This document shows, piece by piece, positions 30,243 through 48,787 of a stretch of 48,787 bases of DNA. Source of the DNA: Pegethrix bostrychoides GSE-TBD4-15B (lineage in GTDB: Bacteria > Cyanobacteriota > Cyanobacteriia > Elainellales > Elainellaceae); NCBI GenBank assembly GCA_019359155.1, contig JAHHHV010000020.1, positions 1-48,787 on the forward strand. The letters run 5' to 3'. The translations under genes were made by a program, and so were the position numbers. The notes under the pieces were generated by a model that ran no database searches, was not told the origin of the DNA, and worked only from the letters and a program-made list of their open reading frames with translations. How positions within the stretch are numbered: the stretch's first letter is position 1; every line of letters starts with the position of its first letter.

Positions 30243-30506
30243 AATCACTACATCCCGAAATCACTATATCACTGAAGCCGAGGACTGAGCGGCAAACTGA
30301 AAGCCCGGTAATTTATCTTAAAGCTCTGGTGATCTCCAAAAAAGCGACAGGTTCTCAGCCTGTAATACGTTCAGGCTGGCTGTTTGTTGCAGCTGGCCTA
30401 AATCTGCTTGACCGACTTGCAGATTATTCAAATCCAGCAATCCGATGTAAAGTTTAGGTGTTTCAGTCTGTAATGAAATCTTTGAAAGGTGTGGAGAGTG
30501 TTTGGA

Positions 30507-32549
30507 ATGGTCAATACATCTTGGGAGCGATTGCTGTTTGGCTTATGGGCAGTCTGCGGCACAAGCCTGGTTTGCCTGCCGACGCTAGCTGCTCCTGATC
30601 CAGCAGTCAGCGGTGACCGGCCAGAACTGCCAGCCTCAAGCCACTCAGCCTCAGATTTGGGTCAGCCAGCTCCTCTCTTCAGCCGTTCAGACTTTCACCC
30701 AGCCGAGAACATTGCTGAGCCAGCAGCCCCTAGCCCATTACCGACGCTCACAGCATCACCCCTCCCAGAACTGAGCCAGCTCGCGCAGTCGGCTAGTCAC
30801 GCACCCGATGCACCCGATGCACCCGATGCAAGGGTGCGCGCGACATCTCCTAACGCGATATCTCCTGATCTATCCACTCCTGATCTATCCACTGACCTGA
30901 TTCCGCCCCTCGTTCCGACAGCCGCCGAGCGAGACAGCCTGCCGCACTCCAGCCGCACCATGTCGCAGGTAACCTCTGCTTCAGAGCTAGCCGACGTGCA
31001 GCCCACCGACTGGGCTTATCGGGCGGTGCAGTCGCTCGTCGAGCGCTATGGCTGCATTGTAGGCTACCCAGACGGCACCTTTAAGGGGCAGCGTGCCCTA
31101 AGCCGATTTGAATTTGCGGCGGGCTTAAACGCCTGTCTCGATCGGATCAGCGAGCTGATTGCGGCCAGCACGGAAAGCTTGGCGACAACAGAAGATTTGG
31201 CCGCGATTTCGCGCCTGCAAGATGAATTTGCGACGGAGATCGCCCTGATGCGCGGCAGGCTAGATGGATTAGAGGCCCGACTCGCCGAAATTGATGCCAA
31301 CCAGTTTTCCACCACCACCATCCTCAGAGGCAGCGCCGTGTTTTCCGTCGCAGATGTGTTTGGGGACGGCGACCAAAATCAGACCGTGTTTCAGCACCGC
31401 CAAAACCTCAGCCTGATCACCAGCTTTACGGGGCAAGATGTCCTGCTGCTCAGCCTCTATGCGGGCAATGCACCGCTGGGCAGCCTGGATGCAGATCCGC
31501 CCTATACCGGCACGTTTGACCTAGCGGGGACAGAACTCAGCGCGAATATTGGCGGTGCTGATCGCAGCATCAAGGCTTCTACCTCAGAGGGGACGCTCTC
31601 CTCGGCCTTTGCCGGACAGACGGGAGACGCGCTGCAAGCGCTGACGCTGGGCTATAGCTTCCCGGTGGGTGACTCGGTTAGCGTTGCGCTAGCTCATTCG
31701 CTGGCTCCGTTTCAGCTTTACGCTCCCACGCTCAACCCATATCTTGACGATCAGGAAGGCGGCACGGGCGCAATCAGTATTTTTGGGGAATATAACCCCA
31801 TCTATGCGCTGGCAGGTGGCGGCACGGGTATTATCGTCAACTTTACGCCGTTTGGCGATACCGTGAAGCTGACGGCGGGCTATCTGGCCGACGGACTGGC
31901 AGTGGGCGATCCGAGTCCAGGGTCAGGCTTGTTTAATGGCGGCTACGGGGCACTGGGGCAGCTGACGGTGAACATCAGCAAAAACTTTTCGATTGCCGGG
32001 GTTTATGTCAACGAATATTCGCCCTCGGGTCGGTTTGGCTTTAACTACAACGGGCTGGGCGTGACGGGTACGGCAGTTGCCAATACGCTGGGCGGTCAGG
32101 ATATTTTTAACAGTCGGATTGCCGGACAGCAGATTGCCGCCCTCGATCCGTCGCCTGTGGTCACCAATGCCTACGGCGCGCAGTTTAACTGGCAGCCCAG
32201 CTCACGATTTTCGATTAGCGGCTGGTTTAGCACTTTTTATTCACGGCTAATTGGCAAAGGCGATGGCAATATCCTCACCTATGCGCTCACCTTTGCATTC
32301 CCAGATTTGGGTCGTCAGGGTAATCTGCTGGGGCTTGTGGTGGGAGCTGAACCCTACTTAACCGCAGTGGGCGGCGATCCGCAAGACTTTGATGTGGATG
32401 TGCCGCTGCATATTGAAGCCTTCTATCGCTATCGGATCAACGACAATATTTTTGTCACGCCGGGTGTGATCTGGCTGACGGCTCCTAACCAGAGCAACGA
32501 CAATCCAGATTCGATCCTGGCAACGCTCCGTACCACTTTCTTGTTTTGA
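30507..32549 (+). CDS. SLH-domain OprB-type outer-membrane porin (iron uptake porin)
   Basis: A 680-residue outer-membrane protein: signal peptide (about 9-29, LLFGLWAVCGTSLVCLPTLA), a Ser/Pro/Ala-rich spacer with DAPDAPDA and PDLST repeats, an SLH domain at 159-213 (ADVQPTDWAYRAVQSLVERY) that anchors to peptidoglycan-linked polymer, a coiled-coil stretch (ISRLQDEFATEIALMRGRLD), and an OprB-like beta-barrel ending in the aromatic residue FLF. In cyanobacteria this family includes porins implicated in inorganic ion and iron passage. The ATG at 30507 has ggagag nine bases upstream; a GTG at 30489 is less likely. Confidence 0.92.
   Translation: MVNTSWERLLFGLWAVCGTSLVCLPTLAAPDPAVSGDRPELPASSHSASDLGQPAPLFSRSDFHPAENIAEPAAPSPLPTLTASPLPELSQLAQSASHAPDAPDAPDARVRATSPNAISPDLSTPDLSTDLIPPLVPTAAERDSLPHSSRTMSQVTSASELADVQPTDWAYRAVQSLVERYGCIVGYPDGTFKGQRALSRFEFAAGLNACLDRISELIAASTESLATTEDLAAISRLQDEFATEIALMRGRLDGLEARLAEIDANQFSTTTILRGSAVFSVADVFGDGDQNQTVFQHRQNLSLITSFTGQDVLLLSLYAGNAPLGSLDADPPYTGTFDLAGTELSANIGGADRSIKASTSEGTLSSAFAGQTGDALQALTLGYSFPVGDSVSVALAHSLAPFQLYAPTLNPYLDDQEGGTGAISIFGEYNPIYALAGGGTGIIVNFTPFGDTVKLTAGYLADGLAVGDPSPGSGLFNGGYGALGQLTVNISKNFSIAGVYVNEYSPSGRFGFNYNGLGVTGTAVANTLGGQDIFNSRIAGQQIAALDPSPVVTNAYGAQFNWQPSSRFSISGWFSTFYSRLIGKGDGNILTYALTFAFPDLGRQGNLLGLVVGAEPYLTAVGGDPQDFDVDVPLHIEAFYRYRINDNIFVTPGVIWLTAPNQSNDNPDSILATLRTTFLF
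30801..30892. repeat. Two in-frame tandem repeats in the porin spacer
   Basis: A 9-bp unit gcacccgat three times (30801-30827) and a 15-bp unit tcctgatctatccac twice (30863-30892), encoding APD and PDLST repeats. Confidence 0.9.
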
Positions 32550-32585
32550 TCTTTTAATCTTATCGCTCACATCAGGAGTAGTCTC

Positions 32586-34238
32586 TTGGCGACCTTGCAA
32601 ATCACTAGCTTCCCAGCCCAGGTTGGCGTTGAAGAATATCTCAGCATCAGCGGCACGGCTCAAGACTTGGCGAGACAGCCGCTGACGCTGGTGATTGACA
32701 ATCAGTATCGGATGGGCGCGGGCGCGGTGCCAGACAACGGTCTTTGGAGCTTCCGGTTCCGGTTTACTAGCTCAGGGCGGCGCAGCCTCGCGGTGCTGGC
32801 GACTGATGACAGAGGTCAGACGGTTTCTAGCCAGACGATTGTGATTTCGGTCGTCAATGCTTCCCTGCCGCTGCTCCAGGTTACCTCCTATCCCTATCAG
32901 GTACAGCAGGCGGAAGCCTGCATCATCAACGGCATTGCCAGAGAGCTAGATGGCCGACCGCTGACGCTGACGGTTGACGATCGCTATCAGTCGTCGGTGG
33001 GCAATATCCCGGCGGGCGGCAGCTGGAGCATTCGGTTTCGATTCAACAGCACTGGCAGCCGCAAGCTGGTGTTTTCGGCCACGAACGCTCAGGGCAGCCT
33101 GTTCAGTAGCCCACCGATCACAATGCTGGTGCTCGATGATTTGCCGCCCAACCTGACGATTGTTGCACCGCCGCAGGTGGCAGTCCGTCAGGAATTTTCA
33201 ATTTCGGGAACGGCAGACGGCGTGATTGGTCAACCCGTGACGCTGACGATTGACAATCAGCTTCGCGCCAACGCCGGAACTGTCGCGGCCAACGGCACCT
33301 GGCAGACGCAGTTTCAGTTTTTGCAGGCTGGCAGTCGGCGCTTGACGGCTTCGCTGGAGAGTCTCGCTAGTCCAGTCCGCAGCGAAACGCTCACCATCGC
33401 CGTTGTCGCCGCTTCGCCCCGCCTCACAATTACGCCGCCGACGCAGCCCATCTATGCAGGCAGCGGCTTTGTGCTGGCGGGCGGTGCCAAAAATTTTGCA
33501 GATGGCGAACAGCTGGTGCTGCGCGTCGACGGTCAGTATATTTTGGCTCGGCCTATCGTTCAAAATCAGCGCTGGCAGGCAGCCCTCTTTTTTAATCAGG
33601 CTGGCAAACGCCGGGTAGAGCTAATTTCTTCAGATCAAGAGCAGGAGGAAATTCAGCTGACCGTGCTGCCCACGCCGTCAGCACTAAAACTCTTTGCGCG
33701 GTCAATCTGGACGCCAACGCTCACGCCTGAGGGTATTCCAGATCTGCTCAACCCAAAGCGAATCACGCTGCACCATACGGTGATCGCCAATCTCTCGACG
33801 AGCGCCACACAGCAGCAGGAAATTCAGCGGATGCGAACCGTTTTGAATATTCATCTCAACAGCAGCGGCTATTCAGATATTGGCTATCACTATATCGTTA
33901 TGCCGAGCGGTCGGGTCTATGAAGCACGCTCTAGCCGAAAACGCGGCGCACATGATTTGGTAAACGACGGAATTGGCGTTGCAGTAGACGGTGATTTTCA
34001 AGGTTCGCTGCGGATTGGTGTACAGCAGTATGATGCGGTCGTAGAAACCTGCATTATGCTCTGCAAGCGGATGGGAATCACCGATCCGATCACGCCCGTC
34101 AGCACAACGACGGCTGACTTTGGCACCCGACAGCTCTCGCGGATCTGCGGCCACCAAGATCGAGTCGCCACAGGCTGTCCCGGCACGGTTTACAGTCGGC
34201 TTTCCGAGATCCGGCGGGATGTGAAGCAGGAGCTATAG
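32586..34238 (+). CDS. N-acetylmuramoyl-L-alanine amidase with four Ig-like modules, no signal peptide
   Basis: Residues about 1-92, 93-185, 186-275 and 276-362 are four diverged copies of an Ig-like beta-sandwich module (shared cores LTLVIDNQYRMGAG, LTLTVDDRYQSSVG, VTLTIDNQLRANAG, LVLRVDGQYILA). Residues about 375-550 form a PGRP/Amidase_2 domain with zinc ligands His396 (TLHHTV), His523 and Cys531 (CGHQDRVATGCPG) and Tyr435 (GYHYIV). It would cleave the lactyl-peptide bond of peptidoglycan. Translation starts at a TTG preceded by caggag. No export signal is visible, which is odd for such an enzyme. It lies 36 bases after the porin gene and may share its transcript. Confidence 0.9.
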   Translation: MATLQITSFPAQVGVEEYLSISGTAQDLARQPLTLVIDNQYRMGAGAVPDNGLWSFRFRFTSSGRRSLAVLATDDRGQTVSSQTIVISVVNASLPLLQVTSYPYQVQQAEACIINGIARELDGRPLTLTVDDRYQSSVGNIPAGGSWSIRFRFNSTGSRKLVFSATNAQGSLFSSPPITMLVLDDLPPNLTIVAPPQVAVRQEFSISGTADGVIGQPVTLTIDNQLRANAGTVAANGTWQTQFQFLQAGSRRLTASLESLASPVRSETLTIAVVAASPRLTITPPTQPIYAGSGFVLAGGAKNFADGEQLVLRVDGQYILARPIVQNQRWQAALFFNQAGKRRVELISSDQEQEEIQLTVLPTPSALKLFARSIWTPTLTPEGIPDLLNPKRITLHHTVIANLSTSATQQQEIQRMRTVLNIHLNSSGYSDIGYHYIVMPSGRVYEARSSRKRGAHDLVNDGIGVAVDGDFQGSLRIGVQQYDAVVETCIMLCKRMGITDPITPVSTTTADFGTRQLSRICGHQDRVATGCPGTVYSRLSEIRRDVKQEL

Positions 34239-35929: not shown

Positions 35930-36652
35930 ATGGCAGACCGAAGACCGGGCGGCGCGTTATCGACCCGTCCACTTCATTTTATTTGGCTCTGTGACTGTTC
36001 GGGTTCCATGGCCGTAGACGGTAAAATTCAGTCTTTGAATAACGCTATTCAGCAGGCGCTGCCGCTGATGCGGAAAGCCGCAGAAGACAATCCCAATGCC
36101 CAAGTGCTGGTGCGGGCGCTGCGATTTTCTGACGGGGCGCAGTGGCATGTCTCACAGCCCACGCCCGTCGAGCAGTTTCACTGGACAGATCTCCATGCAG
36201 ACGGCGTGACCGACATGGGTAAAGCGCTGTCGATGGTGGCTGAGCAGATGCAGATTCCGCCAATGAGCGACCGAGCGCTGCCGCCCGTTTTGGTCATGAT
36301 TACCGACGGTCAGCCAACCGATGACTTCAACAGAGGGCTGCGTGAGCTGATGGCTCAGCCTTGGGGCAAAAAGGCGGTGCGGATTGCAATTGCAGTCGGT
36401 CAACAGGCAGACTACGAGATTCTGCAAAAGTTTATTGGCAATATTGAGCTGAAGCCGCTATCGGCCAATAATCCAGATGCGCTAGTGAATCGAATTAAGT
36501 GGGTTTCGACTGCCGTGTTGAAGGCAGCTTCTGCCCCCGCGAGTCAGGCGCAGCGGCTGGACGACGGGCAGCGAGATAGCGCTAGCAACGTGCCGATCCC
36601 AGCAGTGCCGCCAGAGAAGACGGCAATCGACCCTGTGAACGATGTTTGGTAG
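35930..36652 (+). CDS. TerY-like von Willebrand factor A domain protein
   Basis: A 240-residue cytoplasmic protein with one vWA domain and an intact MIDAS metal site: DCSGSM (Asp22, Ser24, Ser26), the Thr in DGVTDMGKAL and the Asp in MITDGQPTDD. It is closest in style to TerY/YegL, the vWA member of the TerY-P triad together with a PP2C phosphatase and a kinase, both present in this locus. Probable role: metal-dependent scaffold for phospho-signalling. The C-terminal 40 residues are a disordered tail. The ATG follows aggaga. A 16-bp tandem duplication overlaps its stop codon. Confidence 0.9.
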   Translation: MADRRPGGALSTRPLHFIWLCDCSGSMAVDGKIQSLNNAIQQALPLMRKAAEDNPNAQVLVRALRFSDGAQWHVSQPTPVEQFHWTDLHADGVTDMGKALSMVAEQMQIPPMSDRALPPVLVMITDGQPTDDFNRGLRELMAQPWGKKAVRIAIAVGQQADYEILQKFIGNIELKPLSANNPDALVNRIKWVSTAVLKAASAPASQAQRLDDGQRDSASNVPIPAVPPEKTAIDPVNDVW

Positions 36653-36668
36653 GAACGATGTTTGGTAG
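36637..36668. repeat. 16-bp tandem duplication spanning the vWA stop codon
   Basis: gaacgatgtttggtag occurs twice in tandem. The first copy contains the stop of the vWA gene; the second copy makes a non-coding spacer just before the ggaggg that serves the PP2C gene. Confidence 0.95.
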
Positions 36669-36682
36669 GAGGGCAAGCAACC

Positions 36683-37888
36683 ATGGTTCAGCTTTCGAGA
36701 ATTCAGCCTATGCAGCAGCATGATGCCGAGTGGCACTGTGTCGGTCAGACTAGCCGGGGTGCATCGCATCAGCGCCACCAGACGCCAAATCAAGATGCCA
36801 TTCGCTGGTTTCCTGGCTATCCCAAACTGGGCAGAGGCACTCCGCTGATTTTGGCAGTTTCAGACGGGCATGGCAGCCCCAAAAGTTTTCGCAGCGATCT
36901 GGGTGCGCAGTTTGCCGTGCGGCTCGCTGAAAAAATTCTGAAGGAAGCTTTGGCAATTCCGCAGCTTCAGTCTTCAGAAATACAGACTGCTGATTTCGAC
37001 GCGCTGTTAGAGCCGCTCCAGCTACCCCAGCGTTTGGTGCGAACTTGGAGTGAGGTCGTGAGTCGGCACTGGCAGCAACATCCAGTCACGTCAGCGGAAT
37101 GGGCTGAGCTGGCTAAGCAGCAGGTTTCTCGACAGGCAATTGAGACAGATCCGGCAGTGGTCTATGGGGCAACGCTGCTGGTCGTAGCGGTGACAGACTG
37201 GTTTATCTTATATATGCAGCTGGGAGACGGCGATATTCTAGCAGTAGATAGTCAGGGTGAAGTATCACGTCCGTTGCGGCGTGACGATAGACTGATTGCC
37301 AATGAGACAACATCACTCTGCACATCTGAAGGCTGGAGAGAATTCCAGATAAAGCTTGTGCCGCTCGCGCAGCAGTCGCCGGAGCTAATTTTGGTAGCAA
37401 CTGACGGCTACGCCAACTCATATCCGACTGAGGCAGAGTTTATCAAAATTGGGCCAGACTACCTCAACCTGATTCAACAGCAGCAGCTCGCGCACGTAGT
37501 TGAACATTTGCCAGAATTTTTAGCGGAAACTTCGCGTGAAGGCAGCGGTGATGATATTACGATTGGTCTAATTTACCGCAGCTCACAGCCAACTGCTCCA
37601 GTCCAGCCGCCTGAAAAACCCGAAAAATCTGAGGAGCCTGAGAAACCCGAAATGCGCCGATCTAACGCCTTAGGACTGACAACGCTAGCGCTAACTCTGC
37701 TGAGCTTTGGCTGTAACGGCTGGCTGTGGAATCACTGGAAACAAACCAACAGCAAGCTCATAGAGCTACAAAAAACAGTTGAGGCGCTTCAGCCAAAGCC
37801 CAGCGAATTTAATCAGAATCAGCCTGCGGAGAATCAGCCTGCGGAGAATCAGCCATCACCAACATCTGTCTATAGAGATGAACGATGA
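36683..37888 (+). CDS. PP2C-family protein phosphatase with C-terminal membrane anchor
   Basis: Metal-dependent Ser/Thr phosphatase. Recognisable are NQDA (36-39), the metal-binding VSDGHG (59-64), LQLGDGDILAV-type and LVATDGYANS strands, and the late GSGDDITIGLI motif with two aspartates. After the catalytic domain come a Pro/Glu/Lys linker (PPEKPEKSEEPEKPE), one membrane segment (LGLTTLALTLLSFGCNGWLW) and a short coiled coil ending in NQPAENQPAENQ (15-bp duplication at 37816-37845). It is thus membrane-tethered with its catalytic domain inside. Start: ATG 36683, preceded by ggaggg. Its end overlaps the next gene (ATGA). Likely opposes the kinase encoded at 43718-45040. Confidence 0.9.
   Translation: MVQLSRIQPMQQHDAEWHCVGQTSRGASHQRHQTPNQDAIRWFPGYPKLGRGTPLILAVSDGHGSPKSFRSDLGAQFAVRLAEKILKEALAIPQLQSSEIQTADFDALLEPLQLPQRLVRTWSEVVSRHWQQHPVTSAEWAELAKQQVSRQAIETDPAVVYGATLLVVAVTDWFILYMQLGDGDILAVDSQGEVSRPLRRDDRLIANETTSLCTSEGWREFQIKLVPLAQQSPELILVATDGYANSYPTEAEFIKIGPDYLNLIQQQQLAHVVEHLPEFLAETSREGSGDDITIGLIYRSSQPTAPVQPPEKPEKSEEPEKPEMRRSNALGLTTLALTLLSFGCNGWLWNHWKQTNSKLIELQKTVEALQPKPSEFNQNQPAENQPAENQPSPTSVYRDER
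37816..37845. repeat. 15-bp in-frame duplication near the PP2C C-terminus
   Basis: gaatcagcctgcgga twice in tandem, encoding ENQPA repeats. Confidence 0.9.
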
Positions 37889-38934
37889 ACAATCTACCCC
37901 GACAGCAGCTCTGTACATTAGTAGCTCGCTATGGCAAAACAATCTGCGATGATCCCTATCGCTGTAAGGGCCTGCTGCATGACTTTTGCGGCCAGTTTAA
38001 GGGAGAGATTTCTGTGCTGATGAGCGCGCTGGAAGAAGGTGTCACCCAGGCGCTCTCTGTGCCGCAAAACCCGATAGCCGCCAGAATGCAGCTAGAGCGT
38101 CAAATTCACCGATTGCAGGAAGAGCGGGGTCTGGCGGAAGATGCGGCTCGCTGGGCTGTGGAGTCTTGGGCAATCGCGCTGGGTATTGATATCGGCACAG
38201 AAGAAACGCTGAGAACGGCACCTGCTCATACGGCCTTGGATGCTGCTGCGACTGCTTCGACGGTGGCTTCGACGGTGGCTTCGACGGTGGCTTCCGCTCA
38301 GCCGCCGCGATCAGCTGGCGCAAATTCTGCTGCGCTAAATCCTGCCTCGACGGCTCGCCCCTGGCTCTGGGTGGGGGTTGCGAGTCTTGCCGTACTGGGA
38401 ATTGCCTCAAGCTTTGTGACCGAACCTGATGTACCAGAGCCTACGCCAGTCGCTGCCTCTGCACCTTCTCTGCCTTCTCCTGTGCCTCTGCCCCAGCTCA
38501 GGCCTGAATTGGTCTGTCAAGAGCCACAGCCAGCGACCCTGCCGCAAAAGCCCGACTTTGCATATCCTAACGGCAGCAAATTCTATGGTGAATTGAAGGG
38601 CAACGGAACTCCGGCAGATGGTCGAGCAACTATTTTGTTTCCAAACGGCAATCGGTATGACGGAGAATTTCAAAACGGCCAGCGCAACGGCTGTGGCACA
38701 TTCAAATACTCAGGATTTGGAGTCTATATGGGTGAATTTGAGAACGATAAGCTGAGCGGCATCGGAGAGCTGAAGCTACAAAACGGCAACCGCTATCGAG
38801 GTAATTTCAGTCAAAACAAATGTCAAGGAGAGGGCGTATTCCTCTATGCCGACGGTCGTGCGGTAACTGGCAGCTGGAACGCAGGTAACTACAGGGGTTC
38901 CGCAGATGGCTCACCCTCCTGCAATTCGCTGTAG
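37885..38934 (+). CDS. MORN-repeat membrane protein with novel N-terminal domain
   Basis: A 349-residue protein in three parts. Residues 1-100 form an uncharacterised helical domain (PRQQLCTLVARYGKTICDDP ... AARWAVESWAIALG) that recurs in the RDD protein at 42742. A linker with TVAS repeats (12-bp unit three times, 38254-38289) leads to one membrane segment (159-178, PWLWVGVASLAVLGIASSFV). The outer part, 222-340, holds about five MORN repeats (YPNGSKFYGELKGNG, FPNGNRYDGEFQNGQRNGCG, LQNGNRYRGNFSQNKCQGEG). Expected topology: helical domain inside, MORN sheet outside. Its ATG overlaps the PP2C stop, so the two are translationally coupled. Confidence 0.85.
   Translation: MNNLPRQQLCTLVARYGKTICDDPYRCKGLLHDFCGQFKGEISVLMSALEEGVTQALSVPQNPIAARMQLERQIHRLQEERGLAEDAARWAVESWAIALGIDIGTEETLRTAPAHTALDAAATASTVASTVASTVASAQPPRSAGANSAALNPASTARPWLWVGVASLAVLGIASSFVTEPDVPEPTPVAASAPSLPSPVPLPQLRPELVCQEPQPATLPQKPDFAYPNGSKFYGELKGNGTPADGRATILFPNGNRYDGEFQNGQRNGCGTFKYSGFGVYMGEFENDKLSGIGELKLQNGNRYRGNFSQNKCQGEGVFLYADGRAVTGSWNAGNYRGSADGSPSCNSL
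38254..38289. repeat. 12-bp in-frame triplication in the MORN gene linker
   Basis: gcttcgacggtg three times, encoding the STVA repeat. Confidence 0.92.
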
Positions 38935-38963
38935 CTAATTGATCATCTAGAAACGCTACCTGC

Positions 38964-39027
38964 TTGGCTGACAAGCCTGAGTTTAGCCCGGTTGAATCGG
39001 GGATTCAATCAGCCGCTTGTCAGTCAA
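38964..39027 (+). other. Nested intercistronic hairpin
   Basis: An outer 13-bp stem (ttggctgacaagc / gcttgtcagtcaa, one G-U pair) encloses an inner perfect 7-bp stem (ttgaatc / gattcaa) with a three-base loop. It starts 30 bases after the MORN gene stop and ends 87 bases before the proline-rich gene. There is no T-tract, so I expect RNA processing, stabilisation or attenuation rather than simple termination. Confidence 0.55.
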
Positions 39028-39114
39028 CCAGGTCTAGCTTCTAAGAATTTTACTGAGAAGCTAGATCGAGCACGGTTACAACTAGATAGTTTTACACCTA
39101 ATAAGGAGTTGCAA

Positions 39115-39468
39115 ATGAATCGGAAATTCTTTCCCGCCAAGCTGCTATTTGTGCCGGCGACGACGCTATTGCTCACGGGTCTTAGCATCATGCCAGCCCA
39201 GCTCTTGCAGTCTGCGCTAGCCCAGCCAGTCACGCCAGCAACGCCCGGCCCTGCATCTGTTACGCCTCTACCTGTTACTCCTGCGCCTGTTACTCCTGCA
39301 CCCGTTGAGCCTGCGGCTGTTACTCCTGCACCTGTTGAGCCTGCGCCCAACGTCATCTCCGAGCCAGTAACACCAAATCCTGGTAGTGGCAGTGGCGGCA
39401 CTGTTGTCACTGATCCCGAATTGCAGCAGCCTACAACAATTCCAGCCGCCTATCCGGTGAGATGGTAG
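39115..39468 (+). CDS. Small secreted proline-rich protein
   Basis: The ATG at 39115 has an excellent ribosome-binding site (aaggag, seven bases before). The 117-residue product has a signal peptide (residues about 8-37, ending LQSALAQ) and then a low-complexity, mostly PVTPAP/PVEPA-type repeat region with a glycine-serine patch, and no folded domain. It could be a flexible cell-wall-spanning or surface peptide. An upstream TTG at 38992 opens the same frame but lies in the nested hairpin and is unlikely. It sits between the MORN and L,D-transpeptidase genes, flanked by hairpins on both sides. Confidence 0.75.
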   Translation: MNRKFFPAKLLFVPATTLLLTGLSIMPAQLLQSALAQPVTPATPGPASVTPLPVTPAPVTPAPVEPAAVTPAPVEPAPNVISEPVTPNPGSGSGGTVVTDPELQQPTTIPAAYPVRW

Positions 39469-39496
39469 GCCAGTTTTAGCGCTCTAACCTGCTAAT

Positions 39497-39545
39497 CTTC
39501 CCCTGTTTCTAGTGACCATTTAGCAGCAGGGGAAGCTAATCCAAA
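39497..39545 (+). terminator. Intercistronic hairpin after the proline-rich gene
   Basis: Perfect 9-bp inverted repeat cttcccctg / caggggaag with a long loop, 28 bases after the stop. No T-tract; possible weak terminator or mRNA processing site. Confidence 0.4.
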
Positions 39546-39602
39546 CGGCTTCTCCAGATCACTGGTGCGTTCTCTGTCTAATTCTGGCCTTAGTTTAAGC
39601 CT

Positions 39603-40175
39603 ATGTCTCGCTCACAGATCCGGCTAGCGTTGTTGACCAGTCTTGTCCTGATCGGGCTTCAGTCAAGTCTGATCATTCAGACAGCGGCGGCTCTGCCTGA
39701 GATTACGCCCAAGATTACGACCAGAATTACGCCTGATCTGCCTAACCTGCGGCCTAGCTGGCCCGAACCCGCAGTGCGGCTCTTGTTGAAGCTGAGCGAG
39801 CGGCGGGTTTATCTCTACCAGGGTGAGCAACTGCTGGCCGACTATCCGGTGGCGGTGGGTAAACCGCACTGGGAAACCCCGACGGGTAATTTCCAAGTGA
39901 TGGTGATGCAGGAACATCCAGCTTGGCAAACCCCCTCTTTTGTACCTGCTTCAGAGCAAGGTATTGTGCCCGCAGGAGATGCCAATAATCCAATGGGTGA
40001 ACGACTCATTTTATTTTGGACAGATGGCAAAGATTATATTGGCTTTCACGGCACAAATCAGCCAGATTTGATTGGTCAAGCCGTTTCGCATGGCTGTGTG
40101 CGAATGCGAAATCAAGATATCCGCAAACTATACGAATCGGTTTCAATCGGTACGCCTGTTGTTGTAGAGCCTTAA
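39603..40175 (+). CDS. L,D-transpeptidase (YkuD family), exported
   Basis: Peptidoglycan cross-linking or lipoprotein-linking enzyme. The 190-residue protein has a signal peptide (about 7-30, LALLTSLVLIGLQSSLIIQT). Its YkuD domain carries the conserved strand RRVYLYQGEQLLADYPVAVG, a conserved histidine in GFHGTN (149) and the catalytic motif SHGCVRM with His163 and Cys165. It is a single-domain, short form. Only three bases separate it from the FHA gene, so it belongs to the same operon and may be an output enzyme of the signalling locus (inference). Confidence 0.93.
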   Translation: MSRSQIRLALLTSLVLIGLQSSLIIQTAAALPEITPKITTRITPDLPNLRPSWPEPAVRLLLKLSERRVYLYQGEQLLADYPVAVGKPHWETPTGNFQVMVMQEHPAWQTPSFVPASEQGIVPAGDANNPMGERLILFWTDGKDYIGFHGTNQPDLIGQAVSHGCVRMRNQDIRKLYESVSIGTPVVVEP

Positions 40176-40178
40176 GAT

Positions 40179-41150
40179 ATGACCGTACAACCTCGATATT
40201 CAGCACAGCTCAAAGCCCATGCCTTGCAGCCCGCCTGTCATAATTTAGCCACCCACAGATCAACCGTGATTGGCCGAGATCCAGACTGCCAGATTGCGCT
40301 TGATGCCGAGCAGTATCAGGATATTTCGCGTCGCCATGCTGAAATTCATCCGCCCACCGGCCAGTCTCTCAGCTGGCAGATCTGCGATTTGGGCAGCGTC
40401 AACGGCACATACCTCAACGGGCAGCGCCTCCAAAACTGTCAGGTACTGCAAAATGGCGACCGAATTTTGCTGGGCGCAACCGGCGTAGATCTGCTGTTTG
40501 AGTGCCGCCCCGCTCAGCCGACAGCAGGCGAATCGCTGGCTGCAACGGTCTATGACGGTGCGCCGCCCAGAGCTAATTCTGGAATGGCCCATTCTGCACC
40601 CGCTCAGACCGGAACAGCGCCCTGGAAGGTGATTTGCTGGGTCTTGGCCGCACTGTTTGGCCTGACGCTGCTTAATTCAATTCAGTCTCGGCCGTCTCAG
40701 AGAGCGGCAAATGACAATCCGCCTGTCTCACAAGCCTCGCCAGATGCTTCACCGCCTGCCCCGCCTGCCTCGCCTGCGCCTGCCTCGCCTGCCTCACCAA
40801 GCGCCCCGCCTGCCAGTGCCGGATCGGGCTTAGATGCGATGAAGCCTTATTTTGAGCTAGGTGAGCCTGAGGTGAAGGAGAATGCCACGATCCGCGACGT
40901 AGCGACAGGCAAGACGGTCAAAGCCGATGTTTTGGTGATGGAAGTCACGGCCAAATCTAGTTTTAGCCATCGTGACGTGCAGTTTGTGGCTCGTTTTTTG
41001 GATGCTGAAGGTCAAGAGATCAGTCCGCCCAGTGAAGTATTTTACGATCCGCTGCCGGAGCGCTGGAGAGCTGGCACCGAGAGTCAAGCTGTTTTTGCAC
41101 TGCCTGACAATCGACAAGGTATTCAGAACATTGTCGTTACGTCTGTTTAG
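40179..41150 (+). CDS. FHA-domain single-pass membrane protein
   Basis: Residues about 8-110 form a forkhead-associated domain with all phosphothreonine-binding landmarks: Arg33 (VIGRDPDCQI), Ser50 and His53 (ISRRHAEI), Asn75-Gly76 (GSVNGTYLN). A membrane segment follows at about 148-168 (WKVICWVLAALFGLTLLNSI), then a Pro/Ala/Ser spacer made of short repeats and a C-terminal beta-rich domain (about 220-323; KPYFELGEPEVKENATIRDV) without recognised family. It probably reads phosphothreonine marks inside and contacts periplasmic partners outside. Cotranscribed with the L,D-transpeptidase gene, three bases upstream. Confidence 0.9.
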   Translation: MTVQPRYSAQLKAHALQPACHNLATHRSTVIGRDPDCQIALDAEQYQDISRRHAEIHPPTGQSLSWQICDLGSVNGTYLNGQRLQNCQVLQNGDRILLGATGVDLLFECRPAQPTAGESLAATVYDGAPPRANSGMAHSAPAQTGTAPWKVICWVLAALFGLTLLNSIQSRPSQRAANDNPPVSQASPDASPPAPPASPAPASPASPSAPPASAGSGLDAMKPYFELGEPEVKENATIRDVATGKTVKADVLVMEVTAKSSFSHRDVQFVARFLDAEGQEISPPSEVFYDPLPERWRAGTESQAVFALPDNRQGIQNIVVTSV

Positions 41151-41189
41151 CAGATTTTCATCATACGTTCTAACATATTCTTCAATCTC

Positions 41190-42695
41190 ATGAATCTATC
41201 TCCACAACCCAGCCTGCGACAGATTTCGGTCAGCCCCAACGGTCAGGCAATTTGGCATCAGCTCTCAGGTGATCGGCCAACCGTAATTGGCTCAGATCCA
41301 AATGGACAGATTGTTTTAGATGCCCAGCAATATCCCGGCGTGTCACGTCAGCATGTAGAGATTCGAGCAGTGCAGGCTCCGAACGGCCAAATGAGCTGGC
41401 AAATTCGCGATTTGGGTAGCACAAATGGCACCTGCATTAACCGCCAGCCCCTACAGGGAACGCAAATTCTCCAGCCCGGTGACTCAATTCAGGTTGGCAA
41501 GCGCGGTCTAGAGTTTCAGTTTGAAAATCGCGTCAAGTTGCCCCAACTATCCCAAAAGTCACCTCAGCCCACGCAGATTGCCCAGCCTGCCCCGGCCACT
41601 CCGCTCCCCCCAACCCTTTACCGTCCCGCCGCCCCGACTCTAGCTCCCCAGCCTCCAGCTCCCCAGCCTCCAGCCCGCCCCGGAACCAATCGCGTTCCAG
41701 CCCGTGCTCCCCTAGCCGATGATGAGCTACGGCTGAGTCAAATGCTGCCAATTATGGGAGCCAAGCAGGATCTGCTCAAAAAAGGATTCTTGATCCCAGG
41801 CGTGATCACGATTTTGCTGGTAGCGGGTTTATTTGCCAGCAACGGTAGGCCAGTGCTGTTTAACGGTCTGCTCAGCCTTTATCTTGGCGTAGCCGCCTAT
41901 TATTTTATCTATCGACTCAGCGGTAAACCCAAGCCTTGGTGGCTGCTATTTGGCTCAGCGCTGATGACGATGCTAATCCTTAAAAGTCCAATCCTAGACC
42001 TGTTCATGTTTGTATTCCGCAAGCTGCTGCCCGGTGGAATTGAGCAAACTGATTTTATGACGGCTCTGATTGGCAATTTTTTTGGAGCAGGCATGATGGA
42101 AGAGTTGCTGAAGGTGCTGCCAGTATTTTTGGCGCTCTGGATTGGACGGCAGCTCCGCTCACCTGCTGCAGAGCGATTGGGAGTCTGGGAGCCGCTAGAT
42201 GGCATCTTGATTGCGACGGCTTCGGCAGTTGGCTTCACGCTGTTAGAAACAATGGGGCAATATGTGCCCGGTGCAGTAGAAACCGTTTCAGAGGCAGCAG
42301 GGCGTGGTGCAGGAGAGCTGTTAGGGCTACAGCTCTTGATTCCTCGGATTTTGGGATCGGTGGCTGGACATTTGGCCTACAGCGGCTACTTTGGCTATTT
42401 TATTGGCCTCAGCGTCTTAAAGCCCTCTAAGCGCTGGACAATTCTGACCATTGGCTACATTACCTCAGCCGCACTGCATGCCTTCTGGAATGCCTCTGGC
42501 GAACTGGGAGAGCTGGTAGCGACCGTCCTGGGCGCGAGTGACTGGCTACAGCAGCTCGTGGGGGTTGGCGTGACGACGTTGATAGGTTCAGTAGCCTATT
42601 TATTTTTGATGGCGGCCATCCTGAAAGCGCGGCAGCTTTCGCCCAATCGCTCCCAGAATTTTGCAACGCAGGTGAATTTTTCGAGACTGCCATAG
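41190..42695 (+). CDS. FHA domain fused to PrsW-like intramembrane metalloprotease
   Basis: A 501-residue fusion. An N-terminal FHA domain (about 8-113) keeps Ser52, His55 and Asn79 (VSRQHVEI, GSTNGTCIN), but the phosphate-binding arginine is replaced by Ser35 (VIGSDPNGQ). A Pro-rich repeat linker (120-175) leads to eight or so membrane segments with PrsW-type motifs: the glutamate pair in MMEELLKV (304-305), Glu353 in FTLLETMGQ, His394 (GHLAYSGYFGYF) and His430 (ALHAFWN). PrsW proteases cleave membrane-bound anti-sigma factors or similar. Here proteolysis could be gated by phosphoproteins. Member of the same-strand locus. Confidence 0.88.
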   Translation: MNLSPQPSLRQISVSPNGQAIWHQLSGDRPTVIGSDPNGQIVLDAQQYPGVSRQHVEIRAVQAPNGQMSWQIRDLGSTNGTCINRQPLQGTQILQPGDSIQVGKRGLEFQFENRVKLPQLSQKSPQPTQIAQPAPATPLPPTLYRPAAPTLAPQPPAPQPPARPGTNRVPARAPLADDELRLSQMLPIMGAKQDLLKKGFLIPGVITILLVAGLFASNGRPVLFNGLLSLYLGVAAYYFIYRLSGKPKPWWLLFGSALMTMLILKSPILDLFMFVFRKLLPGGIEQTDFMTALIGNFFGAGMMEELLKVLPVFLALWIGRQLRSPAAERLGVWEPLDGILIATASAVGFTLLETMGQYVPGAVETVSEAAGRGAGELLGLQLLIPRILGSVAGHLAYSGYFGYFIGLSVLKPSKRWTILTIGYITSAALHAFWNASGELGELVATVLGASDWLQQLVGVGVTTLIGSVAYLFLMAAILKARQLSPNRSQNFATQVNFSRLP

Positions 42696-42741
42696 AGAAC
42701 TTAGCGTGCTAATTTGATATGCTCATTTAAGGTAAGCCAAG

Positions 42742-43692
42742 ATGAACAGTATGATGAACGATATACCTCGCCAAAAGCTACGCGAGATTATTTCGCAGCA
42801 AGGCACTGCCGTCTGTGAGCAGCCGCATCGCTTAAAAGCACTCCTGCATGACCAGTGCGGCGCTTATCGTAAAGAAATTGCGGTGCTGATTACAGCGCTA
42901 GAAGCACGAATTCCCCAAGATCTGCTCTCCTCACAAAACAGCCTGCCTGCGGGTCTGCTGCTGGCACGTCTGATTAAACGCCTTCAGGATAATTTTGGTC
43001 TGTCGAGCGATGCGGCTCACTGGGCAGTCGAATCTTGGGCGCTAGCGCTGGGAACGATTGCGTCAGCTAGTTCACCGTCAGATCAAATCAGGCCGAGCCA
43101 AGAGCAGCCCCGATCCCGGCAGTCAAACGAGCTGCAAGCAACGGTGATTACGCCATCTGCTACGCAGGTTCAGCCTGTTGGTAATCCAGCTCGCTCGCCA
43201 GATCACCTATCAGATCACCTATCAGATCACCTGCCAAATCATCTGCTGCCTGCCGCCTATGCCAGCTTTGGCTCACGCACTGCCGCTTTGCTAATTGACG
43301 GAGTGATTCTCTATATTTTAGGGTTTCTCAGCGGATTTCTACTGGCAGTTTTCTACGCTCTGCTGACTGAAAGCACTGAAGGAGTGGAGCCGCTGGCCTA
43401 TCTACTTGGCATCGTGCTCAACTGGCTCTATTTTGCGCTGCAAGAGAGTTCTGTTAAGCAAGCGACGATAGGTAAACGCGCCATGAATATCTACGTTACC
43501 GATCTCAACGGCAGTCGGCTGTCTCTTAGCCAAGCCACGAGCCGTCATTTTAGCAAAATTCTCTCTGCTGTTCTCTGTATTGGATTTATCATGGCAGCCT
43601 TCACGCAGAGGAAGCAGGCACTGCATGATCTCATCGCAAAGACATTGGTGGTTCAATGCCGTTCGCACTCCAGCGTTTCCAGTCAGTTCTAA
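42742..43692 (+). CDS. RDD-family membrane protein with novel N-terminal domain
   Basis: A 316-residue protein. Residues 7-104 repeat the uncharacterised helical domain of the MORN protein (PRQKLREIISQQGTAVCEQP ... AAHWAVESWALALG). A linker with SDHLSDHL repeats (12-bp unit, 43201-43236) leads to an RDD domain (about 168-312) with three membrane segments and its signature residues (GSRTAALLIDGVI, TIGKRAMNIYV, ALHDLIAKT). RDD proteins are poorly understood; some are ion or small-molecule transporters. The kinase gene starts 25 bases downstream, implying one transcript. Confidence 0.87.
   Translation: MNSMMNDIPRQKLREIISQQGTAVCEQPHRLKALLHDQCGAYRKEIAVLITALEARIPQDLLSSQNSLPAGLLLARLIKRLQDNFGLSSDAAHWAVESWALALGTIASASSPSDQIRPSQEQPRSRQSNELQATVITPSATQVQPVGNPARSPDHLSDHLSDHLPNHLLPAAYASFGSRTAALLIDGVILYILGFLSGFLLAVFYALLTESTEGVEPLAYLLGIVLNWLYFALQESSVKQATIGKRAMNIYVTDLNGSRLSLSQATSRHFSKILSAVLCIGFIMAAFTQRKQALHDLIAKTLVVQCRSHSSVSSQF
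43201..43236. repeat. 12-bp in-frame tandem repeat in the RDD gene linker
   Basis: gatcacctatca twice, then gatcacctgcca, encoding DHLS repeats. Confidence 0.92.
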
Positions 43693-43717
43693 GCAATCTA
43701 TTTCAGCTTCTCGACCT

Positions 43718-45040
43718 ATGAATGAACTTTTGCAACCGGGGCAAACCGTCTACACGCAGTTTTCGCATCTGCCCTGCTTGGTAGAGCAATGTCTCGGCAG
43801 TGGCGGACAGGGTGAAGTTTATCAGGCCAGTCTAGGCGGGCAGTCTGTGGCGCTGAAGTGGTATTTTCCGCATTACCAGATCCATGATCCAGGACTGCGA
43901 ACCAGGCTGGAAGAGGCGATTAAAACAGGCTTTCCCAGCGAGCGATTTCTCTGGCCGCTAGAGCTAGTACTCTCGCCTGATTTGGACGGATTCGGCTATG
44001 TGATGCCGCTGCGTCACGCTGGTTCTGTTGGGATTGTGGCGCTGATGAAAGGGCAGGTTTCGCCGTCGTTTCGGGCACTGGCAACGGCAGGATTTGAGCT
44101 GGCCGACAGTTTTTTTCAGCTCCATGCGCGCGGATTTTGCTATCGCGATATTTCGTTTGGCAACATTTTTTTTGAGCCAGAAACTGGCCATATCTTAATC
44201 TGCGATAACGATAACGTGGGGATTAATAATGCCGAGCTGACTGGCGTGTTGGGTACGCCTCGGTTCATGGCTCCAGAAATTGTGCGCGGCGCAGCCAAGC
44301 CCAGTACCCAGACCGATCTGTTTTCACTGGCGGTGCTGTTGTTTTACCTGTTTTTGGTGCATCATCCGCTAGAAGGGCAGCAGGAGGCCGAAATCCGCTG
44401 TTTTGATCTGCCCGCCATGACTCGCATCTATGGCACAGATGCCACCTTTATTTTTGATCCAGACAACACAGCTAATCGTCCGATTCCTGGCTATCAAGAC
44501 AATCCTCTCATCTTCTGGCCAATTTATCCAGAGTTTTTACGCGATCTGTTCATCAAATCATTCACCAGCGGCATCCATAACCCGACCAATGGCCGGATTC
44601 AGGAAACCGAATGGCGTTCGGCGATGGTGCGCCTCCGCGACGCGATCTTCTACTGTGCTAGCTGTGGAGCTGAGAATTTCTACGATCCTCAGTCTGCCTC
44701 AACCACCTGCTGGGACTGCCAAGCTCAGCTGCATCTACCGCCCAGCCTGCATCTGCCTCAAGCGGTCGTGATGCTCAACCACAACACGCATCTCTATCCC
44801 CATCATCTAGATGCTCATCAGCGCTATAACTTTTCGCAGCCAGCAGCCAGCGTGGTGCAAAATCCGGCGCATCCGCAGATCTGGGGGCTTAAAAACTGCT
44901 CAGATCAGATTTGGGCCATCACGACAGCCGAGGGGATGCTCAGAGAGGTTGCACCGGGGCGCAGTATTACCATCGCGGTCGGCACTAAAATTAACTTCGG
45001 CAAGCAGACGGGCGAAATCCGGCTGAGCAATCGGCTATAG
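43718..45040 (+). CDS. Atypical protein kinase with C-terminal zinc ribbon (YegI/TerY-P type)
   Basis: A 440-residue soluble kinase-fold protein from ATG 43718. The glycine loop is GSGGQG (27-32), the ATP lysine Lys47 (ALKWYF), and the catalytic loop YRDISFGN with Asp144 and Asn149, where a Tyr replaces the His of HRD. The DFG position reads CDNDN (Asp163/165), and the APE motif is intact (FMAPEIV). After the lobe comes a CxxC-x14-CxxC zinc ribbon (Cys313, 316, 331, 334) and a small beta domain (about 385-440). This composition fits the kinase of TerY-P systems. The frame is open 46 codons further upstream, inside the RDD gene, but the sequence there is that gene's shadow. Confidence 0.88.
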   Translation: MNELLQPGQTVYTQFSHLPCLVEQCLGSGGQGEVYQASLGGQSVALKWYFPHYQIHDPGLRTRLEEAIKTGFPSERFLWPLELVLSPDLDGFGYVMPLRHAGSVGIVALMKGQVSPSFRALATAGFELADSFFQLHARGFCYRDISFGNIFFEPETGHILICDNDNVGINNAELTGVLGTPRFMAPEIVRGAAKPSTQTDLFSLAVLLFYLFLVHHPLEGQQEAEIRCFDLPAMTRIYGTDATFIFDPDNTANRPIPGYQDNPLIFWPIYPEFLRDLFIKSFTSGIHNPTNGRIQETEWRSAMVRLRDAIFYCASCGAENFYDPQSASTTCWDCQAQLHLPPSLHLPQAVVMLNHNTHLYPHHLDAHQRYNFSQPAASVVQNPAHPQIWGLKNCSDQIWAITTAEGMLREVAPGRSITIAVGTKINFGKQTGEIRLSNRL

Positions 45041-47978: not shown

Positions 47979-48665
47979 TCAATCGGCAGCTACTATAGGC
48001 TGCTCTATAGTCGACTGCCGATCCAGCTTGTGATACTGATTAACAACCGTAGAGCGGAACTGCTCCCCTGTACCTTTAATCGTTTCAAGCCCTCGGTGCC
48101 AAGCCCACTCAGACAAAGCGAGCAGACAGCCGACCTGATCGCTGAGGGAGATTTGATAGCCAAAGATTGCTTGTAAATAAAGTTTCCACTTCAGCAAGCC
48201 CGTAGTGGAAGCGACAAGGCTTGCCCGCTTGACGTTGGGGTCGTACCACTTGAGGCGAGAAACCTTGTCAGTCTGAGAACGACAGAAACATTTGCCGTGA
48301 TCTCGGCGCTGGAACAGATATTCTTCCACATAGCCGACATCTCCTTGCAGCACCATTTCTGCCAGGAAATTGCGGTCTGAGCCAGCGTAGTTGCCATGCA
48401 TATGAGTCTTGGCAATGCAGCTTGCCCGCATCACGCCAAAAAATTCGCTGAAGTAACCTGCCCAAAGAATCCGACGGAAGCGATCACAAACGGACGAACT
48501 CTTGAGCCGCAACTGATCGTCATAGGTGCCAATCTGCTGACCTTCCTCATCAATCACCTGCGACCGGGAGTGAACAATCACAATCTCTGGATGCTGGTCT
48601 AAGAGTTCAATACAGTTGCGGAGATAGTCCGGCTCCAGCACATCATCATGCGCCACCCACTTATT
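47979..48665 (-). pseudogene. Glycosyltransferase family 2 gene, 5'-truncated
   Basis: From residue KWVAHDDVLEPDYLRNCIEL onward (48662 leftward) this is the second part of a GT-A fold family 2 glycosyltransferase, with the metal-binding HDD, VIVHSRSQVIDEEGQQIGTY and a long C-terminal region. The nucleotide-binding first 80-100 residues that should precede KWVAHDD are absent. Instead the open frame continues into 28 unrelated hydrophobic codons back to a GTG at 48749. The break at about 48665 coincides with sequence that starts a rightward frame at 48721, so the gene was probably cut by an insertion or rearrangement. Confidence 0.75.
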
Positions 48666-48720
48666 AACCCGGCAATAGAAGAGAAGGCATACTATAAATA
48701 GAAGTAATAGGGCGTGAAAT

Positions 48721-48787
48721 ATGGAGAACCAGGATGCTCGTGACCTCACTCAAGCCGTCCAACAATTTCTGCGGCAGCAAGCGATTC
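48721..48787 (+). CDS. Possible 5' end of an unidentified gene leaving the window
   Basis: An ATG with agggcgtgaaat upstream reads MENQDARDLTQAVQQFLRQQ and two more codons to the window edge. The composition looks like a genuine helical N-terminus. Its position on sequence that replaces the start of the glycosyltransferase makes a transposase or other mobile-element gene plausible, but 22 residues cannot identify it. Confidence 0.4.
   Translation, partial: MENQDARDLTQAVQQFLRQQAI

Follow-up and report, generated by a model that had tools for sequence, protein, structure and literature searches.

The window analysed here is the whole 48,787-nucleotide contig JAHHHV010000020.1 (contig C20 of a 5.7-Mb genome) from the cyanobacterium Pegethrix bostrychoides GSE-TBD4-15B (GenBank assembly GCA_019359155.1). 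Between positions 35930 and 45040 it carries nine open reading frames (ORFs), all on the + strand, among which are the three members of a TerY-P triad—a vWA protein, a PP2C phosphatase and a kinase-zinc ribbon protein—a set credited to Anantharaman et al. (2012) in PMC11090510. Two further genes, for membrane proteins with MORN and RDD domains, begin with a common domain that we have named TPA (TerY-P-associated) and that recurs beside such triads in many phyla. The features of the locus are as follows:

35930..36652, + strand: TerY-like vWA protein, 240 aa (Pfam VWA 8.7e-8; MIDAS motif DxSxS intact, as DCSGS)
36662..37888, + strand: PP2C phosphatase, 408 aa (Pfam PP2C_2 3.6e-40; DGHG and GDD motifs intact)
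37885..38934, + strand: TPA-transmembrane (TM)-MORN protein, 349 aa (Pfam MORN 6.1e-13; TM segment from a hydropathy window)
37885..38187, + strand: TPA domain copy 1, N-terminus of the MORN protein (9.2e-29 against copy 2; profile 1e-37)
39115..39468, + strand: small Pro-rich ORF, probably secreted, as read from its sequence (no Pfam family)
39603..40175, + strand: YkuD L,D-transpeptidase, 190 aa (Pfam YkuD 7.5e-28; SHGCVR)
40179..41150, + strand: FHA-TM protein, 323 aa (Pfam FHA 2.2e-20; FHA motif intact)
41190..42695, + strand: FHA-PrsW intramembrane protease (Pfam FHA 1.9e-15, PrsW 1.1e-34; motif EELLK)
42742..43692, + strand: TPA-RDD membrane protein, 316 aa (Pfam RDD 8.1e-26; TPA profile)
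42754..43053, + strand: TPA domain copy 2, N-terminus of the RDD protein (TPA profile; seven helices in AlphaFold2)
43718..45040, + strand: TerY-P-type Ser/Thr kinase, 440 aa (Pfam Pkinase 4.9e-17; Cys4 zinc ribbon at 313-334; FHA-like C-terminus, ~342-440)

A preliminary description of this DNA, made from sequence alone, had listed nine same-strand genes, and the ORF listing placed all of them at the positions it gave; Pfam returned the domain names it had used for eight, the Pro-rich ORF being without a family. The junctions it had singled out were right (an ATGA overlap at 37885, inside which the MORN gene begins before the PP2C gene has ended, a 3-bp gap at 40176 and a 25-bp gap at 43693), and intergenic gaps run from -4 to 46 bp within two tight blocks, vWA-PP2C-MORN and YkuD through kinase; these blocks do not make an unbroken chain, since the Pro-rich ORF between them has 181 bp before it and 134 bp after it. 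A better start for that ORF than the TTG at 38992 is the ATG at 39115, which is preceded by AAGGAG. We found no evidence to support counting the Pro-rich ORF as a member of the cluster, and the YkuD gene is placed there by adjacency only.

The triad assignment is borne out by a VWA match with the DxSxS motif, by a PP2C_2 match with its catalytic motifs and by a kinase sharing 50-62% identity with 23 kinases of other TPA loci; the TerY-specific PADLOC model matched the vWA protein weakly (2.4e-5, 22 bits). The vWA and PP2C genes lie 9 bp apart, and the kinase gene follows on the same strand after six intervening genes. The kinase domain (motifs K47, YRD, DND and APE) precedes a zinc ribbon, as had been predicted, with CxxC-CxxC at residues 313-334, followed by a beta domain. 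Across 24 aligned sequences (the window kinase and the 23 others), K47, D144, N149 and D163 are invariant, as are the zinc-ribbon cysteines C313, C316, C331 and C334. In a 48-kinase tree, in which 12 of 45 inner forks were weak, the window kinase groups with cyanobacterial and Chloroflexota kinases (support 98/93).

The last ~100 residues of the kinase (window 44741-45037), a part that the preliminary description had not picked out, are mostly beta strands in the predicted structure (model pLDDT 93). Compared by hhalign with an 80-row FHA profile, they gave a probability of 88 and an E-value of 3e-6, where five control profiles reached at most 0.6 and a smaller FHA profile gave a probability of 38 (hhalign E-values being those of single comparisons). 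Because the FHA profile search itself matched none of the kinases, we call this domain FHA-like at best, and not a proven phospho-reader. Foldseek with the whole kinase model returned solely kinases among the 50 matches listed and was uninformative for the C-terminal domain.

The main point missed by the preliminary description is the shared N-terminal domain, through which the MORN and RDD genes are linked to each other and to the triad. The proteins starting at 37885 and 42742 are identical in 50 of 101 aligned columns over this ~100-residue region (E 9.2e-29), and no third copy was found elsewhere in the genome. AlphaFold2, given 74 sequences, modelled TPA as seven helices (pLDDT 95.4). A WAVESW motif carries a nearly invariant serine, and in 123 of 131 matches (a set in which some loci occur twice) the domain begins no later than residue 40.

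TPA is apparently uncatalogued. No Pfam family matched more than three of 74 members (best E 0.003 among the best 25 of 43 families), and NCBIfam and PHROGs gave single-member matches alone (E 0.007-0.01). The best match in a sequence search of the PDB had an E-value of 0.15. With the predicted structure, Foldseek found nothing at E ≤ 0.001 (best 2.5), and the best VIA structure comparison reached Z 5.3, a level common for helical proteins; the modelled domain is thus left without an assigned fold and is not claimed as a new one. Literature text searches, whose scope did not extend to Anantharaman et al. (2012), turned up no paper naming a TPA-like domain in the text they covered. TerY-P triads themselves are already known; the apparently new part is the triad-linked TPA domain, a proposed adaptor.

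To survey TPA loci, genome contigs were scanned with a ten-sequence TPA profile, seeded partly from triad loci, and 78 loci were taken from the best 80 of 99 confirmed matches. They fall in 11 phyla: Pseudomonadota (34), Chloroflexota (17), Cyanobacteriota (6), Armatimonadota (5), Acidobacteriota (4), Verrucomicrobiota (3) and five with one locus each, a further four loci being unassigned. Triad genes were sought with profiles grown from the window kinase C-terminus, vWA and PP2C. At least one was present in 51 of the 78 loci, covering nine named phyla, and all three in 38; after removal of four loci that re-found seeds (L094, L121, L126 and L132, two of which carry a triad gene), the counts were 49/74 and 37/74. 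Where both flanks measured 5 kb or more, all three genes were present at 17 of 31 loci and none at the other 14. Of the 83 TPA genes in the 51 loci, 82 shared the strand of their nearest triad gene, the median distance being 49 bp.

Within 338 Cyanobacteriia genomes, TPA was found in 13, the kinase in 15 (one match weak and partial) and both in six (the window's own genome, G000, and G132, G156, G216, G270 and G288), in all of which a TPA gene adjoins the kinase gene; these searches scored some candidates per genome (14 for TPA, five for the kinase), so that misses are possible. Fisher's test gave 3.7e-6 by genome and 0.012 by genus, the latter being the fairer figure because four of the six shared genomes belong to one genus.

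Some individual records deserve separate mention. On an unannotated Methylomonas plasmid (CP157007.1, L049:12001-19430) a triad is followed by five consecutive TPA genes; two of the five proteins carry TPA at the C-terminus, behind domains that we take to be ClpN and a ClpX zinc finger. In one cyanobacterial genome with TPA and no kinase (G117), vWA and PP2C genes lie near TPA on the opposite strand. Another genome (G038:C4:51658-51941) holds TPA in two pieces, one with an in-frame stop, possibly a decayed copy. Phage or plasmid spread of TPA was considered and set aside, single-sequence tblastn (E ≤ 1e-3) having found no match in 50,697 phage records and matches in one plasmid record.

The modules fused to TPA are varied. 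In 110 full-length TPA proteins the matches listed (the best 25 of 123 Pfam families) included LRR_4 (20), FGE-sulfatase (19), Lcl_C (12), WD40 (8) and right-handed beta helix (8), and single proteins carried ankyrin (L078), MORN (L127), vWA (L125) or SH3 (L122) domains. Three Methylococcales loci (L125, L127 and L129) have a TPA-TM-MORN gene after kinase-vWA-PP2C, like the window gene, with the MORN part confirmed by Pfam in L127. Since the partner families listed are mostly recognition or repeat modules, we infer that TPA proteins are input or scaffold arms rather than toxins. In loci with several copies, the nearest relative of a TPA copy lay in the same locus for 35 of 66 copies (shuffle mean 1.0, maximum 7). 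A diversity-generating retroelement beside the TPA-FGE genes was also considered and dropped, a crude scan for reverse-transcriptase motifs there having found nothing.

FHA domains that read phosphothreonine typically carry the motifs GR, SxxH and NG. All three are present in the FHA-TM protein (GR, SRRH, NG), which may thus be a phosphothreonine reader as earlier proposed; in FHA-PrsW, SRQH and NG are kept and GS replaces GR, so that, with the usual arginine missing, phosphothreonine binding by this protein is in doubt. GR occupies that position in the core paralogue, in four relatives' copies and in the second copy of G132. Past residue 150, the FHA-TM protein had no listed match (E ≤ 1e-10, 145 genomes of the class, own gene excluded). 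Against the NCBIfam equivalog NF033739 the window PrsW scored 18 bits, below the curated cutoff of 225, its Pfam PrsW match being 1.1e-34.

At E ≤ 1e-20, 91 of 145 genomes of the class have an FHA-PrsW homologue, and in many of them the FHA part was matched just upstream in the same frame. The window gene is the second paralogue in its genome, the core one lying on contig C16; two copies are also found in G107 and G132. On one side of the core gene (L148:1142-7776) are genes for a 220-aa protein, for CHAT-FHA and for a PP2C with a zinc-ribbon-like N-terminus, and on the other is what we take to be a putative peptide deformylase gene. A CHAT-FHA gene stands beside FHA-PrsW in four of 13 further loci (L190, L193, L194 and L195), and genes matching in size and N-terminal sequence lie near it in L149, L150, L158 and L159, although not all these neighbours are present in every relative. 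In the loci examined, these homologues lie at other places than the window gene.

A link between triads and FHA genes, as the preliminary description had expected, does recur in cyanobacteria. In another cyanobacterial family, f2, whose members have small genomes and are probably picocyanobacteria, FHA genes lie near the kinase in all seven loci examined (of eight genomes). Six of these (L183-L188; for example L183:11210-13549) have a 224-289-aa FHA gene ahead of the kinase and a divergent gene for an FHA-class A penicillin-binding protein (PBP), assigned by Pfam in L183 and by similarity in the other five. This arrangement suggests that peptidoglycan synthesis is under phospho-control. At L182, the seventh, the FHA gene codes for an FHA-ABC transporter; it is ~5 kb distant, and other genes intervene. 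The supposed connection to the cell wall holds in this form, but the window YkuD gene is without comparative support.

Kinase, FHA, PrsW and RDD domains also come together in a separate run in G132 (L199:292-8029), where genes for PP2C, zinc ribbon-kinase-RDD, RDD, kinase-FHA, zinc ribbon-vWA and FHA-PrsW stand in a row. The same run is repeated, by similarity, in L207 and L208 (G216 and G288), the three genomes belonging to one genus, and the kinase-RDD gene is full-length in 3 of 338 genomes. From its domain content, this run is best read as an independent assembly of the window's domain set, with direct kinase-RDD and kinase-FHA fusions. As one conserved set, the nine genes were found neither in TPA loci nor in searches of the class, and single-sequence profiles detected no PrsW, RDD or YkuD gene like the window's in 99 loci.

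Upstream of the cluster, positions 30489-34238 hold genes for an SLH-OprB porin and an Amidase_2 protein that are syntenic in the same-genus genome G004 (78% DNA identity). The synteny reaches the amidase gene (window 34238) and ends before the GDSL gene; G004 is 77% complete and has the downstream genes on separate contigs, and for these reasons it offers no clean empty site. The last 128 bases of the window (48660-48787) recur at 99% identity in the same genome (C88:108-235) as a contig-end repeat.

TerY-P triads are widespread. For the window we favour, at a probability of roughly one half, a TerY-P triad subtype working as a modular phospho-signalling platform with TPA as a plug-in adaptor, with membrane arms at this locus and FHA proteins as possible readers. 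Its observed basis is the gene content, the enzyme motifs, the shared domain, the triad linkage in many phyla and the FHA genes at some cyanobacterial triads; docking, the direction of signalling, the phosphorylation target and the protease substrate are conjectural. TPA would dock interchangeable proteins onto the triad, and here two docked membrane proteins, the MORN arm and the RDD bundle, would hold the complex at the membrane, where kinase and phosphatase would set a phosphorylation state. FHA-TM would then bind a phosphorylated partner, while FHA-PrsW, recruited more weakly or constitutively, would cleave a membrane substrate. For YkuD, a role as an envelope output is possible, its adjacency and the FHA-PBP parallel being the sole pointers. 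The more general proposal, which we hold slightly more tentatively, is that TPA is an undescribed adaptor making the triad a general plug-in platform in at least nine phyla, with host-specific arms (LRR, FGE/lectin-like, WD40, beta-helix, ankyrin, MORN and RDD) and with FHA-linked outputs added in cyanobacteria (a PrsW protease here, a peptidoglycan synthase in f2).

Several observations weigh against this platform. Six genes separate vWA-PP2C from the kinase in the window, the full nine-gene set occurs at no other locus, neither TPA copy of the window has the other as its nearest relative, and FHA-PrsW may not bind phosphothreonine. TPA joins a triad domain in only two of 131 matches (vWA in L125, PP2C in L123) and never the kinase. 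An FHA gene was present at 12 of 53 kinase loci, within the stretch examined; seven of the 12 are f2 loci, and of the other five, three have the gene on the opposite strand and at least 4 kb away. The kinase occurs without TPA in the eight f2 genomes, a Prevotella plasmid triad (L050) also lacks TPA, and seven of the 13 Cyanobacteriia genomes with TPA have no kinase at the cutoff used. No triad gene lies near TPA in 27 of the 78 loci. These 27 correspond to 25 genomes tested (L111 and L131 come from the same genomes as L102 and L125), of which seven gave no kinase match at E ≤ 1e-30. The other 18 did, and this count speaks for the platform: with L117, where the match is a fragment on the TPA contig, and six genomes already known to have a triad gene at another locus set aside, 11 of the 18 remain, compared with a background of 15/338 in Cyanobacteriia and 0/174 in the other genomes of the class of G351.

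Among other explanations of the locus, we regard as rather unlikely a conflict or anti-phage system in which the triad relays an alarm, TPA proteins sense invaders through their LRR, WD40, FGE/lectin-like or ankyrin arms, and membrane parts or PrsW bring about killing or dormancy. According to PMC11090510, TerY-P triads are found alongside Type IV restriction systems, and stand-alone defence has been reported for related modules. The distribution of TPA and kinase in Cyanobacteriia is patchy, four same-genus genomes (two of them less than 92% complete) have no TPA, the partners are of recognition type, and a plasmid carries a triad with five TPA genes, all of which would suit such a role; the phage records, however, yielded no TPA, and Pfam found no nuclease, toxin, TIR or STAND domain in the nine genes. 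Matches to defence models are equally unhelpful to it, those of the kinase in PADLOC falling in the kinase domain of other families, the vWA-TerY match being weak and the match of the RDD protein to PD-T4-6 being confined to the RDD part, and the MORN, RDD and YkuD neighbours, with FHA-PBP elsewhere, point to the envelope instead. Improbable, too, is the idea that TPA, instead of being an adaptor, regulates the kinase or serves as its substrate, for instance as an inhibitor released on phosphorylation. The nearly invariant serine of WAVESW would fit, as would the adjacency of TPA and kinase genes in 36 places (TPA-kinase in 22, kinase-TPA in 14), but TPA genes also directly follow PP2C in 28 places, and partner modules so widely varied are what an adaptor would be expected to have.

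The linear cascade of all nine genes envisaged in the preliminary description—kinase and phosphatase acting through FHA readers on PrsW cleavage and thence on wall remodelling by the L,D-transpeptidase—seems to us a little less probable still. The FHA-PBP genes beside f2 triads make a wall output plausible and the YkuD gene is 3 bp from an FHA gene; against this, a YkuD-like gene was found in 0 of 99 loci by single-sequence profile and 0 of 86 by phmmer, a 134-bp gap lies ahead of YkuD, the whole set is at no other locus and the FHA domain of FHA-PrsW is without its arginine. That unrelated genes lie side by side by chance is the least probable explanation: the FAD gene at the flank is unremarkable and has a different location in related genomes, but for the vWA, PP2C, MORN, RDD and kinase genes chance is very unlikely because of the cross-phylum linkage of TPA to triads and the FHA genes at f2 triads. 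If TPA does serve as the plug-in adaptor of a triad platform, the domain marks likely triad partners, so that candidates for inputs and for partners at the membrane could be listed for any genome. True docking would extend to kinases the adaptor-domain logic put forward for effector-associated domains (EADs) and death-fold systems, and FHA-PrsW here and FHA-PBP in f2 would give an entry point to the control of the cyanobacterial envelope by phosphorylation.

Of known systems, the TerY-P triad is the closest, the window having the same three proteins and domains and a kinase close to triad kinases elsewhere; it differs in that the kinase lies six genes from vWA-PP2C and in the addition of TPA proteins, FHA-TM, FHA-PrsW and RDD. 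YegL is the vWA member beside YegI/PphC-YegK of E. coli, a locus in which we know of no TPA, FHA, PrsW or RDD genes. There, too, a kinase is paired with a PP2C phosphatase: in PMC13232886, YegI autophosphorylates, is dephosphorylated by PphC and is itself membrane-bound, whereas the window has its membrane parts as separate proteins. Actinobacterial GTPase systems include a set of kinase-zinc ribbon-beta domain, PP2C and vWA proteins (PMC7159879). Unlike CoCoNuT Type II/III-A systems, the nine genes encode no McrB/McrC-type GTPase or HEPN domain (Pfam E ≤ 1), and neither was found in 10 other large window ORFs (Pfam E ≤ 1e-5), a search that did not take in coiled coils.

The mycobacterial PknA/PknB cluster has the gene order PknA/PknB-PstP-FHA-RodA-PbpA. 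It likewise brings together a kinase, PP2C and FHA proteins, and the f2 FHA-PBP genes are reminiscent of it; its kinase is a PASTA receptor kinase, whereas the window, with no PASTA domain in the nine genes (Pfam E ≤ 1), has a zinc-ribbon kinase, a vWA protein, TPA and PrsW. FHA-PrsW fusions have been proposed as signalling peptidases (PMC3482391); the window holds the same fusion, here as a second paralogue in a triad locus and with an altered FHA motif. The EAD concept (eLife 2020; PMC7159879) offers a close parallel to TPA, which is likewise a small (~100 aa), non-enzymatic, helical domain that several genes of one neighbourhood can carry (two in the window, five in L049), joined to a variety of modules. 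TPA is, as a rule, not found on the core proteins, the core being the TerY-P triad, and its partners are mostly repeat or recognition domains. Because a copy on the core proteins is a defining feature of EADs, we do not file TPA among them, but it may work like one.

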